From a bacterium (GTDB taxonomy: Bacteria; CAIWAD01), in the NCBI GenBank assembly GCA_030429345.1, contig JAUIFJ010000008.1, forward strand, positions 1 through 64,000: a DNA stretch of 64,000 bases, read 5' to 3'. Positions within the stretch are counted from its first letter, which is position 1; the number at the start of each line of letters is the position of its first letter. The position numbers and the translations under genes are program-made. A model generated the notes under the pieces. It had not been told where the DNA came from and did not search any database. It saw nothing but the letters and a program-made list of their open reading frames with translations. Positions 40,612 to 62,928 of the stretch are shown in pieces.

Positions 40612-40762
40612 GGTTGTCGTGATGTCTTTTCTTGGCCGCCGTCGTCAGGGAGAACCGGACCTTGCCCGGACCGATCAGTTTCGCCCCGACCGACAGCCCG
40701 AACCTGCATTGTGAAACCACATCGGCTTCCAGGTGAAGCCAAGGAAAGGAGCGCGAAAGCGT

Positions 40763-41656
40763 ATGCGTATCTCTCTGACTGCCCTTCGTACACTCGCCGG
40801 CCTGGTTTGTCTCACCGCTGGAAGTGTTTCTGCCGCGACACTGGTCGGCAGCGACCTGACTTTCACTTCCGCCACCGAGCTCGAACCCTACCAGATCCCC
40901 GCCGGGCTGGACGCGGTGGACCTCTATGACTATTCCGACTGGAGCAACAACAGCATGTTCCCCGCCCGCAACGAGGTCGTGGTGCTCTTTGCCCAGGACG
41001 ACCAGGGCGACTACAGCATCAGCGTGATCGTGGACAAGATCAACGACGGCAGCGGCGGCCACCTGGAACTGAACATCACCGGCGCCATCGATGGCGCGAT
41101 CACGGAAATGGACGATGACAACGACAGCTTCGCCTTTGATCCGGTGACCGGCGTCGGCACGGTGGTCTGGAACTGGAATTCCTGCTGCACCGACGGCCTG
41201 GTGCTCGAGTTCGGCGCGCAGATGCCGGAGAACCTCTGCCTGGAGTTCATGAATGCCCAGGGCCTGAACGACATGCGCTTCTGCGGCATGAACCCCGGCA
41301 CCAGCAACTGGCTGGAGCTGACGGACATGGATCCCTGCGAAACGATCTGTGTGACAACCAGTCGCCAGACCAGCGACGCCGTCGAGCATGCCGGCGACTT
41401 CGCCCTGCAGGGCAACTGGCCGAACCCCTTCAACCCGAGCACGACCATCGCCTTCAGCGCCGCCGAGACCGGCCCCGTGCAGTTGAGCGTATACGACCTG
41501 CAGGGGCGCCTGGTCAGCACCCTGGTCGACGGCATGGTCGCCCGCGGCGAGCACAGCGTGATCTTCGACGCGGCCGGACTGTCCAGCGGCACCTACCTCT
41601 ACCGCCTTGAAAGCGCCGCCGGCATCGAGACCCGCCGCATGACGCTGATCAAGTAG
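40763..41656 (+). CDS. Secreted protein with C-terminal FlgD-like/type IX-type sorting module
   Basis: 297 residues with a signal peptide (MRISLTALRTLAGLVCLTAGSVSA). The body is beta-rich (LVGSDLTFTSATELEPYQIP, HLELNITGAIDG) and has six or more Cys (NSCCTDG, CEFIC-like DPCETICVTT). The last 85 residues form an all-beta module with NWPNPFNPSTTIAFS, LSVYDLQGRLV, GLSSGTYLYRL and a terminal MTLIK, the pattern of the Por-secretion/FlgD-Ig C-terminal domains. The ATG at 40763 is chosen because it opens the signal peptide; GTG at 40733 is an alternative. Function of the body unknown. Confidence 0.82.
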   Translation: MRISLTALRTLAGLVCLTAGSVSAATLVGSDLTFTSATELEPYQIPAGLDAVDLYDYSDWSNNSMFPARNEVVVLFAQDDQGDYSISVIVDKINDGSGGHLELNITGAIDGAITEMDDDNDSFAFDPVTGVGTVVWNWNSCCTDGLVLEFGAQMPENLCLEFMNAQGLNDMRFCGMNPGTSNWLELTDMDPCETICVTTSRQTSDAVEHAGDFALQGNWPNPFNPSTTIAFSAAETGPVQLSVYDLQGRLVSTLVDGMVARGEHSVIFDAAGLSSGTYLYRLESAAGIETRRMTLIK

Positions 41657-43864: not shown

Positions 43865-44710
43865 TCACCGTACCAGCGTCAGACGGCGGACCTGGCGGGA
43901 TCCTTCGGGCCACTCCGCCAGCAGGAGGTAGGTCCCCCGGGCCAGGTCCGCTGTCGGGATCCGCCCGGTCGTGCTCTCGCCTTCCAGCCCGCGAACACGG
44001 CGTCCCAACAGATTGTAGAGCACCACCCGCTTCAGGGGAACCGGGCTTTCAAAGCGCAAGGATCCGCGTAGCGGGTTCGGACCCAGGCTCAGCTCGGGGG
44101 CCGAACGATCCATGGTCCGGATCGACGTGACGGGCGTGTCACGCAGACCGCCGACCGCGTCCAGGTCGAAGCTCAAGCCATCCCCGTTCAGGTCCCGCAG
44201 GCGCAGGAAGCGCGCCTCCTGCAGGCCGACATCCGCCAGGTCGAAGAGGTCCCCGCCCATTTCCACGGAACCGGGATCCGCGCTGCCGTCCACGGGTTGC
44301 AGGCCGGCCAGCCCCGTTCGCGCCAGGCTGTCCCAGGGCATGATCTGCCAGGCCTCGCCGTCCTCGCTGAGCGCCAGTTCCGCCGGTTCCTGCCACAGGT
44401 TGTCCGGGTTGCCGCCCACGCGGAACACGTTCTCGCAGACGCGCAGATCCGGGCCGGGCTGGTCATGAATCACATTGTCGAGGAAGGCGAGCACGATCCA
44501 CCCGCCGTCCCCCAGGCTGAGCAGCTCCTCTTCCGCGGCAGCGGGAGTCGTCGGGCTCGCAAGGGGGTCGGGGGGACCGAGCACGTTCGCCGGCAGGAAG
44601 TCCTGGCCGAAGCCCGCGCCTTCGCCGTAGACGACCTCGACGACGGCGTCGGCCCAGCGATCTGCCTGCAGGGGAGCGCAGGCCAGCAGCAGGGGCAGCA
44701 GGATGCGCAT
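43865..44710 (-). CDS. Secreted surface protein in the B12-riboswitch operon
   Basis: 281 residues with a signal peptide (MRILLPLLLACAPLQA). The body VEVVYGEGAGFGQDFLPANV, GDGGWIVLAFLDNVIHD, LSEDGEAWQIMPWD, FDLADVGLQEARFLRLRD and LSFDLDAVGG looks like a beta-sandwich discoidin-like domain. I have seen this pattern in cell-surface proteins next to cobalamin genes, but that is recollection. The last 80 residues are a FlgD-like sorting module (LGPNPLRGSLRF, VVLYNLLGRRV, GTYLLLAEW). ATG at 44710 overlaps the upstream stop by one base; GTG at 44713 gives a GTGA overlap. Confidence 0.8.
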   Translation of the reverse strand: MRILLPLLLACAPLQADRWADAVVEVVYGEGAGFGQDFLPANVLGPPDPLASPTTPAAAEEELLSLGDGGWIVLAFLDNVIHDQPGPDLRVCENVFRVGGNPDNLWQEPAELALSEDGEAWQIMPWDSLARTGLAGLQPVDGSADPGSVEMGGDLFDLADVGLQEARFLRLRDLNGDGLSFDLDAVGGLRDTPVTSIRTMDRSAPELSLGPNPLRGSLRFESPVPLKRVVLYNLLGRRVRGLEGESTTGRIPTADLARGTYLLLAEWPEGSRQVRRLTLVR

Positions 44711-45924
44711 CACTCGGCCGCGCCGAAGAAGGGATCCGCGTGGCGGATCACGCGGAAAAAGGCCCTTCCGTTCTCGAGGGGAAGCGTATACGAAAGCTCC
44801 GTGCTCCAGTCGAAGGTCATCCAGTCCCCCGCGTCGAGAGCCGGGCGCCGCTGCAGTTCGAACCCGTCCCCCGGGCTGCCCTGCCAGGCAAGTTCCAGCA
44901 CTGCGCCGGAGCTGGCGATCTCCAGATCCGGCCCGGCGGAAGGCGCGGCGAAGCAGAAGTGGATCACGGAGTCCTCCAGCGGGATCGTCTGCAGGGTCGC
45001 CCCCTCCGCGTCCAGGCGGAGCACGTTGCTGCCGCTGCTGGTGTAGAGGCCGCCCTCGTGGAAGACATTCGTCCCGCCGCCGGGAGCGAAGGGCCCCGAA
45101 GAGGAATGTGTCACCACCCTGTCGACAGCGTCCCAGCGGTAGACGCCGGCCTGGCTGCCCCAGGGATCGCCGCTGTAGACGAAGCGCTCGCCGTCGCCGG
45201 CCAGGCTGCCGGGGTGGCTGCCCAGCTGCAGGGTGTCCAGCGGCGCCAGGCTGCCCGCGTCAAGGCCGTGCACCTGGCCGACTCCGTCGCTCCAGTTGCC
45301 CGTGCAGAGCACATCCAGCCTTGAGCCGGTCTGCCAGAGGGCCTGCGGGTTCTCCAGGGTCGGCACGAAGGAGACGCTCAGCGAAGGCCATTCGACCACC
45401 GCCAGCCGCGTGCCGCTGCCGAAGCCCGAATCGCAGACCAGCAGGCGGTCTTCCTGCATCCACATGCCCTGGGGAGTGGCCGCGGACAGGGGGACCTCCT
45501 GCAGCAGGCCGGCAGGCCCCAGCACGGCCAGGGTCCCGGCGACCAGGTTGCTGACGCAGACGCGGTCCGTGTCCAGGGCGATCACATCCCAGGCGTTGGC
45601 CCCGGAGACGGCGGAGGTCGCGAAACGCGCTTCCGCCAGCGGATCCCCCGCCTGCTGCCAGGCCAGGGCCTGTGCGAGGTCGAGCAGAATCAACTCGTCG
45701 CTGCCCGAGTCGACGATCATCAGGGTATTCTGGATCACGCGCACGCGGTTTGGCAGCATGAGGTCGACGGGCAGGCTGTGCAGGACCCCGTCGTCGTGTC
45801 GCACGAGCTGCGGTTCGCTGTAGCCGCGCAGGGCGAAGAGTGCGGACTCTGCAGGGAGCTCCGCGGCGACTGCGAACAACAGTCCTGTGCCTGTCAATGC
45901 TTGAGGGATGGTTTTCTTGAACAT
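44710..45924 (-). CDS. Secreted YncE-like beta-propeller, BtuG-like candidate
   Basis: 404 residues. AGGAGG precedes the ATG at 45924; the N-terminus (FKKTIPQALTGTGLLFAVAA) is a signal peptide. Repeated blades read TLMIVDSGSDELILLDLAQ, RVCVSNLVAGTLAVLGPAG, RLLVCDSGFGSGTRLAVVEW, RLDVLCTGNWSDGVGQVHGL and FVYSGDPWGSQAGVYRWD, the style of YncE/YVTN propellers. Lying directly behind a cobalamin riboswitch, it is a good candidate for a B12-capturing surface propeller like BtuG of Bacteroides; that role is inference. The C-terminus is FN3/lipase-like without a clear sorting module. Confidence 0.83.
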   Translation of the reverse strand: MFKKTIPQALTGTGLLFAVAAELPAESALFALRGYSEPQLVRHDDGVLHSLPVDLMLPNRVRVIQNTLMIVDSGSDELILLDLAQALAWQQAGDPLAEARFATSAVSGANAWDVIALDTDRVCVSNLVAGTLAVLGPAGLLQEVPLSAATPQGMWMQEDRLLVCDSGFGSGTRLAVVEWPSLSVSFVPTLENPQALWQTGSRLDVLCTGNWSDGVGQVHGLDAGSLAPLDTLQLGSHPGSLAGDGERFVYSGDPWGSQAGVYRWDAVDRVVTHSSSGPFAPGGGTNVFHEGGLYTSSGSNVLRLDAEGATLQTIPLEDSVIHFCFAAPSAGPDLEIASSGAVLELAWQGSPGDGFELQRRPALDAGDWMTFDWSTELSYTLPLENGRAFFRVIRHADPFFGAAE

Positions 45925-45926
45925 GT

Positions 45927-45947
45927 GACCTCCTGGAAAGGAGGGTC
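45927..45947 (-). promoter_or_regulatory. Hairpin sequestering the ribosome binding site of the propeller gene
   Basis: On the minus strand GACCCTCC / GGAGGTC close around TTTCCA, pairing the AGGAGGT ribosome binding site three bases before the ATG. It lies just after the cobalamin aptamer and would serve as a translational off-switch. Confidence 0.55.
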
Positions 45948-45999
45948 CGGCAGGAAGAGCCCACGGAGGGCGACCTCCCGTCCCGCACCCCGTGGGACT

Positions 46000-46200
46000 G
46001 GCGATGACGGACAGGGCAGGTCTACTGGCTTCCGGGTCACTCTCGGGAATGCCTTCCCGCGGCCAGGGCCGCAGTGGCGTCGGGAATCCGGGCGGATTCC
46101 GTCCATTCCTTCGTCGCCGGTCACAGTGGCGGGGGCCGCTCCCGTGTCTCACGGGATTCCCTCTTCGGCTTTCCGTCCGGACGCGCATCACGACCGGCGC
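46000..46200 (-). promoter_or_regulatory. Cobalamin riboswitch
   Basis: On the minus strand the conserved core reads GAGGGAATCCCGTGAGACAC, then GGGAGCGGCCCCCGCCACTG and TGACCGG (46119-46160), followed at 46015-46031 by the B12 box AAGCCAGTAGACCTGCC. Both match the adenosylcobalamin riboswitch consensus closely. It faces the propeller gene at 45924. The outer limits are approximate. Confidence 0.93.
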
Positions 46201-46322
46201 GGAAGAGCAACCGCTGTCCGCAATTTCTAGATTCTTGCCGGCGGAACAGGCCGCCGACGCGCAAAGAAGGGGAAAAGAGGCTTGAGGATCAAGACGCCGC
46301 ACAAACGGACCCGGGACAGGTT

Positions 46323-60167: not shown

Positions 60168-60208
60168 GTTGCCCGCAGGGCAACTGCAGAGCGGCTGCTT
60201 GCAGCCGC
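60168..60208 (+). other. Two perfect hairpins before the TPP riboswitch
   Basis: GTTGCCC-GCA-GGGCAAC (60168-60184) and GCGGCTGC-TT-GCAGCCGC (60191-60208). They lie between rfbC and the aptamer and may terminate rfbC transcription, though U-runs are lacking. Confidence 0.4.
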
Positions 60209-60290
60209 ACGGTGTAGGGGTGCCTGAAAAGGCTGAGATCACACCCTTTGTACCTGATCCGGGTAATGCCGGCGAAGGAAACAACCGGTT
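60207..60290 (+). promoter_or_regulatory. TPP (thiamine pyrophosphate) riboswitch
   Basis: GGGGTGCC, GGCTGAGA, ACCC, ACCTGATCCGGGTAATGCC and GGCGAAGGAAAC appear in order and spacing, the conserved THI-box segments of the TPP aptamer. It faces the TonB-dependent receptor at 60379. The 90 bases after it hold a near-palindrome (GGACAGGCATGCCTGGTCC, 60349-60365) close to the GGAGG ribosome site, a possible expression platform. Confidence 0.95.
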
Positions 60291-60378
60291 CGATTTGTCT
60301 CACCGCTTGCATTCACCCCGCTCATCCATTGACCGACGGCCCGGCAGGACAGGCATGCCTGGTCCCACTGGAGGTTTC

Positions 60379-62928
60379 ATGCATTCCCTTTGCGGGCAGC
60401 TGTTGTTCCTGCTGCTTCTCGCCCAGGCGGCCCTGGCGGGCCGGATCGAGTTTCGTGTGACAGACGAGAGCGGCCGCGCCCTTCCGGGCGCCACCATCCG
60501 GCTGGTTCCGGCCAACGGAGCGCCCCTGCTGGGGAGCAGCGACCGCCAGGGACGCTTCAGCGCGGAAGCACCCGGGGGCCCGCTGGAGTTGCGCGTGACA
60601 CACATCGGCTACACCGACCACAGCGACCTGGTCGAGGCAGGGGACCTGGGGCGGATCACGCTGGTTCCGCGCCGGGTCAGCCTGGGCGAGGTCAAGGTGG
60701 TCACCGGCCGTGCGACATCCGGGGAGGCGGTCAGCCGAAGCAACCTGGACCGGGAGGAGCTGAGTCTTCGCAATGCCGGCCAGGACCTGGCCACCCTGCT
60801 CGAGGGGACGCCGGCCCTGCTGACCACGAGCTACAGCGGCCTGAACCAGGGCTACAACGACATTCGCCTGCGCGGATTCGACCAGAAACGCATCGAGGTC
60901 CTGCTGAACGGAGTGCCGGTCAACGATCCCGAGGACCACTACGTCTACTGGGTCAACCTGATGGACATGGGCTCCAGCCTGGAGGACATCCAGATCCAGC
61001 GGGGCACCGGCACGGCGGTCTTCGGGGCCAACAACTTCGGCGGCACGGTCAACATGGTGACACAGGAGAGCCGCGAGGGCGGCTTCCGGGTCGAAGGAAC
61101 CATTGGAAGTCATGGCACACGTCGCGAATCCGTCCAGTGGGCCAGCGGGCTGGTCGACGGACGCTGGATGCTCGACGCCCGCTACAGCCAGGTCAAGACG
61201 GACGGTTTCCGCGAGCGCTCGGACAGCGACAGCCGGGGGGTCGCCCTATCGGGAACACGGCTCTTCGGCGAAAGCGGGAAACTGCGCCTGTCGCACTACA
61301 GCGGTCGCGAGCTGACGCGCGTTGCCTGGGACGGGATCCCCATGGAAACGCTCGAAGCCGGAGACCGTACACAGAACAACTACGCCGCCTACCCGAACAG
61401 CGTGGACGACTTCCGCCAGCCGCAGACCCAGGTGCAGTTCGACTGGCAGTTCGACGACGGCACGCGCCTCGACCTGCTGCTGTATCACGTGAACGGAGAC
61501 GGCTTCTACGAGACCATGAAGACCGGGGAGGACCTGGTCGACTACGGCTTCCAGCCCTGGACCGGCTGGGACGCGGAGGCCGACACGACCGTGGAGATCG
61601 GCGAGAGCGACATCGTCAACCGGCGCTGGATCCGCAAGCACCAGAACGGCCTGGGCCTGGGCCTGAGCCGGCCCGCCCTGGGCGGCGTGCTGCGCGGCGG
61701 TCTCAACGGATGGCTCTACCGCGGGGAGCATTTCGGCGAGGTCCTGTGGGGCAACCGCCTGCCGCCCGACAGCCCTCCCGGGGGGCGCTACTATACCCAT
61801 TTGTCGCACAAGACGCGCGTCTCCCCATGGCTGGGCTACAGCCGTTCCCTGCGGGAGGGCCTGCAGGCCACACTGACCCTGAACCTGTCCTACACCGACT
61901 ACGAGCTGGAGCAGCGGCCCGACGGGAACTTCGGCGGCGCGGACCTGCACTCCCTGCAGGCCGACCACCTGCTTGGCGGGGGTGCCCTGGGGCTCAGCTG
62001 GAAGGCGCGGCCGGAGGTCACCGTATACGGCGGCATCGGCTACAGCGCGCGCGAGCCGAGCCGCAGCGAGTACTGGCAGGCCTGGCAAGGGCCCGACGAC
62101 CTGGGGGCGGTCCCGGCCTTCCGGACCGTGACCGTGCGCGCGGACGGCAGCCGGCACTGGGAGGATCCCCAGGCCGAACCGGAAACCGTCCTGGACCTGG
62201 AGGCGGGGGTCCGCTGGGAAAGGGAGGACCTGGCGCTCTCGGCAAATCTGTATCACATGATGCTCAGGGACGAGATCATCCTCTTCGGCGGCTTCGACGA
62301 GGAGAGCCCGATCCGCGGCAATGCCCCGCGCAGCCACCACAGCGGCCTGGAAATCGAGGCGGCCTGGCGTCCCCTGCGCCTGCTGCAGGTCGGGGGGAAC
62401 GCGGCCTTCAGCCGCAACCGCATCGACGAGCTGACCGTCTACAGCACGCGCTACAATGCCGACTGGTCCAGCGAACTGGTGGCCCGCGACTTCGCCGGCA
62501 ACCCCATCGCCCTGAGCCCCGAGCTCCTGCTCAACGGCTGGGTGCGTGTGACGCCGCTTCCCTCCCTGCGCATTCGGCCCCGCGTCCAGGTCGTCGGCGA
62601 GCAGTACCTGGACAACAGCGGGAACGACGGCTTCTACGAGACCGCCGGATTGATCGACCCGGGCTTCGGCAGCGTGTCCTCGCTTCCCTATACCAAGAAG
62701 CTCGACGGCTACACCCTGCTGGGACTGGACGCCGACTGGCGCCTGCCGCTGAAGGACGGCCTGCGGCTGGAACTGGGGCTGAAGATCGACAACCTGCTCG
62801 ACGAGGACTACGAAACCAGCGGCTACTGGAACGACTGGGCAGAAGGCCCCGGCGGCTATCGTCCCCAGCCCGAACTGTATCCCGCGGCGGGGCGGAGCTG
62901 GCTCACGACGCTCGCACTGCACTTCTGA
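60379..62928 (+). CDS. TonB-dependent receptor, probable thiamine transporter
   Basis: 849 residues. GGAGG precedes the ATG at 60379; signal peptide CGQLLFLLLLAQAALA. A carboxypeptidase-regulatory-like domain (FRVTDESGRALPGATIRLVP) precedes the plug (NDIRLRGFDQKRIEVLLNGV, IQRGTGTAVFGANNFGGTVN) and a 22-strand-type barrel ending ...LTTLALHF with the C-terminal Phe needed for outer-membrane insertion. Control by a TPP riboswitch makes a thiamine or thiamine-precursor substrate likely, as known for riboswitch-linked receptors in Bacteroidetes. A typical TonB box could not be pinned down. Confidence 0.92.
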   Translation: MHSLCGQLLFLLLLAQAALAGRIEFRVTDESGRALPGATIRLVPANGAPLLGSSDRQGRFSAEAPGGPLELRVTHIGYTDHSDLVEAGDLGRITLVPRRVSLGEVKVVTGRATSGEAVSRSNLDREELSLRNAGQDLATLLEGTPALLTTSYSGLNQGYNDIRLRGFDQKRIEVLLNGVPVNDPEDHYVYWVNLMDMGSSLEDIQIQRGTGTAVFGANNFGGTVNMVTQESREGGFRVEGTIGSHGTRRESVQWASGLVDGRWMLDARYSQVKTDGFRERSDSDSRGVALSGTRLFGESGKLRLSHYSGRELTRVAWDGIPMETLEAGDRTQNNYAAYPNSVDDFRQPQTQVQFDWQFDDGTRLDLLLYHVNGDGFYETMKTGEDLVDYGFQPWTGWDAEADTTVEIGESDIVNRRWIRKHQNGLGLGLSRPALGGVLRGGLNGWLYRGEHFGEVLWGNRLPPDSPPGGRYYTHLSHKTRVSPWLGYSRSLREGLQATLTLNLSYTDYELEQRPDGNFGGADLHSLQADHLLGGGALGLSWKARPEVTVYGGIGYSAREPSRSEYWQAWQGPDDLGAVPAFRTVTVRADGSRHWEDPQAEPETVLDLEAGVRWEREDLALSANLYHMMLRDEIILFGGFDEESPIRGNAPRSHHSGLEIEAAWRPLRLLQVGGNAAFSRNRIDELTVYSTRYNADWSSELVARDFAGNPIALSPELLLNGWVRVTPLPSLRIRPRVQVVGEQYLDNSGNDGFYETAGLIDPGFGSVSSLPYTKKLDGYTLLGLDADWRLPLKDGLRLELGLKIDNLLDEDYETSGYWNDWAEGPGGYRPQPELYPAAGRSWLTTLALHF

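Follow-up and report, generated by a model that had tools for sequence, protein, structure and literature searches.

What would a cobalamin riboswitch control when the two genes behind it encode exported proteins, and no receptor gene stands beside them, in a bacterium that is not known to be in Bacteroidetes? We addressed this question in the window, by which we mean the whole 64,000-nucleotide stretch of contig JAUIFJ010000008.1 (assembly GCA_030429345.1) that was analysed. A first-pass annotation, made from the letters alone, had proposed that the locus may be a free-standing, sorted B12-capture module built around a propeller resembling BtuG, a protein which has been described as exclusive to Bacteroidetes (PMC6143338). 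The features on which our analysis rests are the following.

45999..46230, minus strand: cobalamin riboswitch aptamer (RF00174), from cmscan and alignment
45929..45944, minus strand: candidate expression platform, a CCUCCU-UUCC-AGGAGG hairpin over the Shine-Dalgarno of the propeller gene, from sequence and fold
44710..45924, minus strand: exported BtuG-like seven-bladed beta-propeller, 404 aa, from the ORF, AlphaFold2, Foldseek and profile matches
44935..45846, minus strand: propeller domain proper, residues 27-330, net charge -20, from pLDDT (mostly >90) and charge
44713..44934, minus strand: C-terminal extension of the propeller protein, residues 331-404, pLDDT <50 and without a confident model
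43865..44710, minus strand: exported BtuH-like protein with sorting tail, 281 aa, from the ORF and AlphaFold2 (pLDDT 89.7)
44111..44659, minus strand: BtuH-like domain, residues 18-200, from Foldseek, profile match, hhalign and conservation
43868..44089, minus strand: predicted C-terminal sorting domain resembling T9SS type A, residues 208-281, from Foldseek and a sub-threshold Por_Secre_tail match

The riboswitch is real. It was placed by cmscan at 46230-45999 on the minus strand with a score of 91.7 bits (E 1.9e-21; gathering score 31.5), the RF00174 model is covered at full length (1-189/189) above the curated cut-off, and the conserved elements GCCACUG and AGCCAG..AGACCUGCC are present; the interval given in the first-pass annotation ends 30 bases inside it. 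A whole-genome search of the 4.24 Mb assembly (98% complete) found this one cobalamin riboswitch. About 75 bases separate it from the start of the propeller ORF (45924-44710, minus strand), which has AGGAGG upstream. As had been noticed earlier, the two coding sequences overlap, by exactly one base, the TGA of the propeller (44712-44710) running into the ATG of the second ORF (44710-44708). A divergent EamA transporter gene lies upstream of the operon, a weak terminator-like site is found at the end of the second gene, and the SET-domain gene that comes next in the same direction has a promoter-like site ahead of it, so that the unit appears to consist of two genes. The riboswitch probably governs both, consensus promoter sites being weak evidence in themselves. 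BtuB is not encoded within the two-gene operon, as the first-pass annotation had said, and neither is any other TonB receptor. The CCUCCU/AGGAGG hairpin is suggestive, but only suggestive, of a platform that hides the Shine-Dalgarno of the propeller gene, its stability being about that of shuffled sequences (z -0.15).

The propeller protein matched no Pfam or NCBIfam model and, in a single-sequence search, no PDB entry, BtuG included. Its AlphaFold2 model, based on an alignment of 42 homologues, has pLDDT mostly >90 over residues 27-326, with ~28 strands that make up seven blades, which bears out the fold proposed earlier. When the model was compared by Foldseek with 350,542 PDB chains, ranks 1-16 were all BtuG (entries 8okv, 8blw, 8bmz, 8bai, 8ptf, 8bmy, 8ptd, 3dsm, 8bmx, 8p97, and 8bn0; E 5e-13 to 2e-11), followed by an archaeal YVTN surface-layer propeller and AztD, and the TMt against single-domain BtuG chains was 0.70-0.76. 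The suspected likeness of the 44710-45924 product to BtuG is supported by the predicted structure. A profile of the propeller family matched BtuG (8blw, 8ptd, 8p97, 8bmx, 3dsm) over the full length with E 1e-52 to 1e-33, and E. coli YncE partially with E 5.5e-15; its top score went to the repetitive archaeal 1L0Q, via repeat matching. When conserved residues that might contact the corrin were sought, N59, N110, and N192 came out as conserved. The N-terminal region has no Cys and hence no lipobox, and the protein is without a sorting tail. Like BtuG2 (BT1954), BtuG3 (BT2095), and BtuG1 (BT1490) of Bacteroides thetaiotaomicron, it is an exported acidic seven-bladed propeller under a cobalamin riboswitch, with a net charge of -20 where BtuG2 has -18 (PMC10404256). 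It differs from them in sequence (9-15% identity with BtuG), lacks the lipobox, and has no btuB next to it, although a btuB-adjacent propeller is found in many homologous loci and on another contig of the same genome.

The second protein likewise gave no PDB match in a single-sequence search, BtuH included. By Foldseek, its best PDB match was 8blw_B (BtuG1 of B. theta; E 3e-5, probability 1.00) with a poor global superposition (rmsd 10.8), as is expected where just one domain corresponds. The best PDB match of a profile of 43 homologues was again 8blw_B, at residues 430-497 (E 2e-4), which fall inside the B12-binding H-domain of BtuG1; the C-terminal extension of BtuG1 is homologous to BtuH2 (PMC10404256). 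This 68-residue fragment, used as a query, recovered BtuH2 (7biz) at 1.3e-8, and hhalign aligned the second-protein family with two BtuH fragments at E 2.6e-6 (probability 88.7), against E 0.24 for the propeller profile as a negative control. In BtuH2, Asn399 contacts the phosphate and Phe401 the lower ligand (PMC8941943). The EN-x-F motif of the second protein aligns with the GNAF motif of BtuH2, the N399/F401 numbering being inferred from chain position; E93 and N94 are invariant (N94 in 43/43 rows) and F96 is conserved (35/43), while the remaining contacts (Tyr510, Trp511, Trp577, His476, Gln333) are not alignable. The model and the profiles together identify a BtuH-like domain that is distantly related to BtuH, and the second protein can no longer be viewed as merely a sorted partner of the propeller.

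The sorting module claimed for this protein stands as a T9SS-type C-terminal domain by fold (RemA-CTD 8gl6, TMt 0.82; mirolase CTD 8qb1, rmsd 2.0), though it stays below the Pfam and NCBIfam sequence cut-offs for Por_Secre_tail (15.7 of 27 bits and 17.1 of 23 bits, respectively). Elsewhere in the window, at 40733-41656 on the plus strand, a further exported protein has a T9SS tail that clears the curated cut-off, an indication that the lineage uses such sorting. Compared with BtuH2 (7BIZ) and the H-domain of BtuG1/BtuGH, the window protein is related by fold and profile, has a putative Asn-x-Phe site that aligns with N399/F401, and belongs to a family whose members are paired with, or fused to, a BtuG-like propeller in matching order; it differs in being highly divergent and in having a T9SS-type tail in place of the PKD domains and the lipid anchor. 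Since the propeller has neither a lipobox nor a linked btuB and the relation of the second protein to BtuH is distant, the window proteins are BtuG-like and BtuH-like, not BtuG or BtuH proper.

The NCBIfam model NF033170 (LIC_13355 family lipoprotein) was matched by 18/18 scanned members of the second-protein family (best E 1.1e-19), and by the window protein at E 0.01 only. In a tree of 79 second-protein domains, the window sequence has a long branch and no nearest neighbour with support; the sequences near it are unclassified or come from Electryoneota and Fermentibacterota. BtuJ/DUF4465 proteins are exported, have a jellyroll fold, bind cobalamin, and are encoded in B12-riboswitch loci (PMC13398666); assignment of the second protein to DUF4465 was rejected, as a Pfam scan gave no match in any of six family members.

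We then estimated how often this arrangement recurs in other bacteria. Counted at E <1e-15, the second protein is encoded in 33 of 386 genomes, and in 28 of these a same-strand cobalamin riboswitch lies ≤7 kb upstream of its gene (25/30 when the three rows used to build the profile are excluded), where chance would give ~0.2% per genome; in the other five, the riboswitch is on a different contig (two) or absent (three). A separate scan of named genomes, which overlaps in part with the 33-genome set, gave 80 loci, with the same riboswitch placement in 42 of the 50 checked. The pair recurs under B12 riboswitches in >10 bacterial phyla, and BtuG-/BtuH-like proteins under such riboswitches were found in Fermentibacterota, KSB1, Calditrichota, Ignavibacteriota, Chlorobiota, Gemmatimonadota, Zixibacteria, Sumerlaeota, Myxococcota, and others. 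The homologues are linked very consistently to cobalamin riboswitches and BtuB-like receptors across many phyla. Of the two outcomes named in the first-pass annotation as telling against its proposal, a propeller without a B12 pocket or cobalamin binding and close homologues tied to unrelated ligands, neither was encountered. For the pattern scan, alignment A4 proved too diverse, and the closer set A6 took its place. For the sister genome G001, a match lying 6 kb away from the riboswitch looked spurious and was left out. Apparent propeller matches in some long proteins, among them a neighbour of the C65 TonB receptor, were due to the sorting tail shared in the profile and were rejected.

The architectures are diverse. 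The receptor-less order of riboswitch, propeller, and second protein, as in the window, was seen in about ten Fermentibacterota loci, where this BtuB-less two-gene form is usual, and in G011/L167; several Fermentibacterota genomes carry a receptor behind a second cobalamin riboswitch elsewhere in the genome. In G318 and G113, the order of the pair is reversed. Thirteen genes from KSB1, Calditrichota, Zixibacteria, Gemmatimonadota, and unclassified bacteria are fused, with the propeller N-terminal and the second domain C-terminal, which is the order in BtuG1 and in B. theta BtuGH, and usually with a sorting tail; here the riboswitch is followed by a BtuB-like receptor and then the fusion. Another architecture runs riboswitch, propeller, second protein, receptor, and in G024, G018, and G020 the receptor occurs with the propeller and btuFCD. 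In G002 and G003, of the same family as the source genome, a riboswitch lies directly ahead of a BtuB-like receptor.

If the window operon has no receptor of its own, one might be supplied from elsewhere in the genome. On contig C11 (L079:8944-12953), a BtuB-like receptor gene overlaps that of a BtuG-like lipoprotein propeller with the lipobox LLAAC, after which comes a gene for a corrinoid adenosyltransferase of the PduO type (PF01923, E 3e-55). No riboswitch was found at that locus. A second receptor, on C5, beats that of C11 on the BtuB profile (280 vs 163 bits) and lies near a protein with haem-binding-like CxxCH motifs; we regard both as candidates and favour C11 as partner because of its genomic context. 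The description of the module as free-standing accordingly holds for the operon and not for the organism, which has this unlinked receptor with its own BtuG-like lipoprotein. The genome encodes MetH and methylmalonyl-CoA mutase and lacks CbiC, and the host appears to be without corrin synthesis. It should therefore depend on uptake and looks like a cobamide user that imports. No FecCD/BtuC-type permease was found in the 98% complete assembly; the single FecCD match was judged by sequence to be a ZnuB-like metal permease. At 60206-61047 (plus strand) of the window, a TPP riboswitch (69.6 bits) lies ~430 bases ahead of a TonB plug domain, and the protein behind it is, by analogy, likely a thiamine receptor like one in Caldithrix abyssi.

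From homology and context, we consider it likely that the operon encodes a B12-repressible surface cobamide-capture pair which feeds an unlinked receptor. When intracellular cobalamin is low, a riboswitch of this class would permit expression of both genes, probably via a freed Shine-Dalgarno. The BtuG-like propeller and the BtuH-like jellyroll-type protein would be exported, and the T9SS-type tail of the latter would direct it to the cell surface, probably by way of a T9SS. Both would bind cobamides and hand them over to a BtuB-like TonB receptor encoded elsewhere, probably that on C11. The proposal that this may be a sorted B12-capture module outside Bacteroides is supported by fold, profiles, and linkage, with the correction that the sorting tail is on the second protein only.

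Conceivably, cobamide binding is confined to one protein of the pair, and its partner has a structural role, docking on the surface or the receptor. The operon does vary in this direction, since in Sumerlaeota-like genomes (G016, L117; G164, L115) the second protein is the sole gene under the cobalamin riboswitch, and several other genomes have the propeller and a BtuB-like receptor without the second protein. Nevertheless, each domain of B. theta BtuGH binds cobalamin on its own (PMC12751083), and the residue aligned with the phosphate-contacting Asn of BtuH2 is invariant in 43/43 rows, which makes a single binder unlikely, if the most serious of the alternatives. Cobalamin riboswitches also regulate cobalt transport and B12-independent isozymes, and the pair could in principle be B12-regulated for a different purpose, for instance to obtain cobalt or a precursor of cobalamin, or for surface adhesion. 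In keeping with adhesion, the related Leptospira LIC_13355 was reported to bind laminin and plasminogen (PMC11891782). The homology, however, is specifically to BtuG and BtuH, the linkage is to BtuB-like receptors and in places btuFCD, and the absence of CbiC makes cobalt for B12 synthesis an unlikely need; we judge this reading improbable. That chance alone placed a propeller of the general YncE-like type and a sorted protein with no relation to it behind the riboswitch, beta-propellers and T9SS tails being common and a second T9SS-tailed protein being present in the window, is contradicted by the same pairing under the same riboswitch in many phyla, fusions included, against the chance expectation given above, and can be given hardly any credence.

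The proposed surface cobamide-capture pair lies outside the published Bacteroidetes range. In a full-text search that covered few subscription papers, BtuG or BtuH under cobalamin riboswitches was not found reported from elsewhere; the B12-riboswitch operon of Caldithrix abyssi was described with BtuB and BtuF, the propeller being unmentioned (PMC5317091). As the proteins occur together, separately, order-swapped, or fused, surface B12 capture looks general among uncultured bacteria. The analysis also offers a function hypothesis for a family without one, including the Leptospira protein currently called an adhesin, which was studied as such with B12 unmentioned (PMC11891782). We tentatively suggest, as a reading somewhat less likely than not, that BtuG/BtuH-type capture is ancient, FCB-wide and beyond, and no speciality of Bacteroidetes, that the LIC_13355-type domain represents a major family of B12-binding surface proteins that has gone unrecognised, and that it can work without an adjacent receptor and, in some lineages such as two Sumerlaeota-like genomes, without a detectable TonB receptor, no TonB plug domain having been detected in G016 and G164. 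Two further loci were recorded in the course of the survey. An Aegiribacteria genome (G392) carries the riboswitch-propeller-second protein operon twice (L148, L188), and a riboswitch-receptor-propeller operon includes a small exported protein (L041:8918-9268, minus strand) that is DUF4430/transcobalamin-like by eye.
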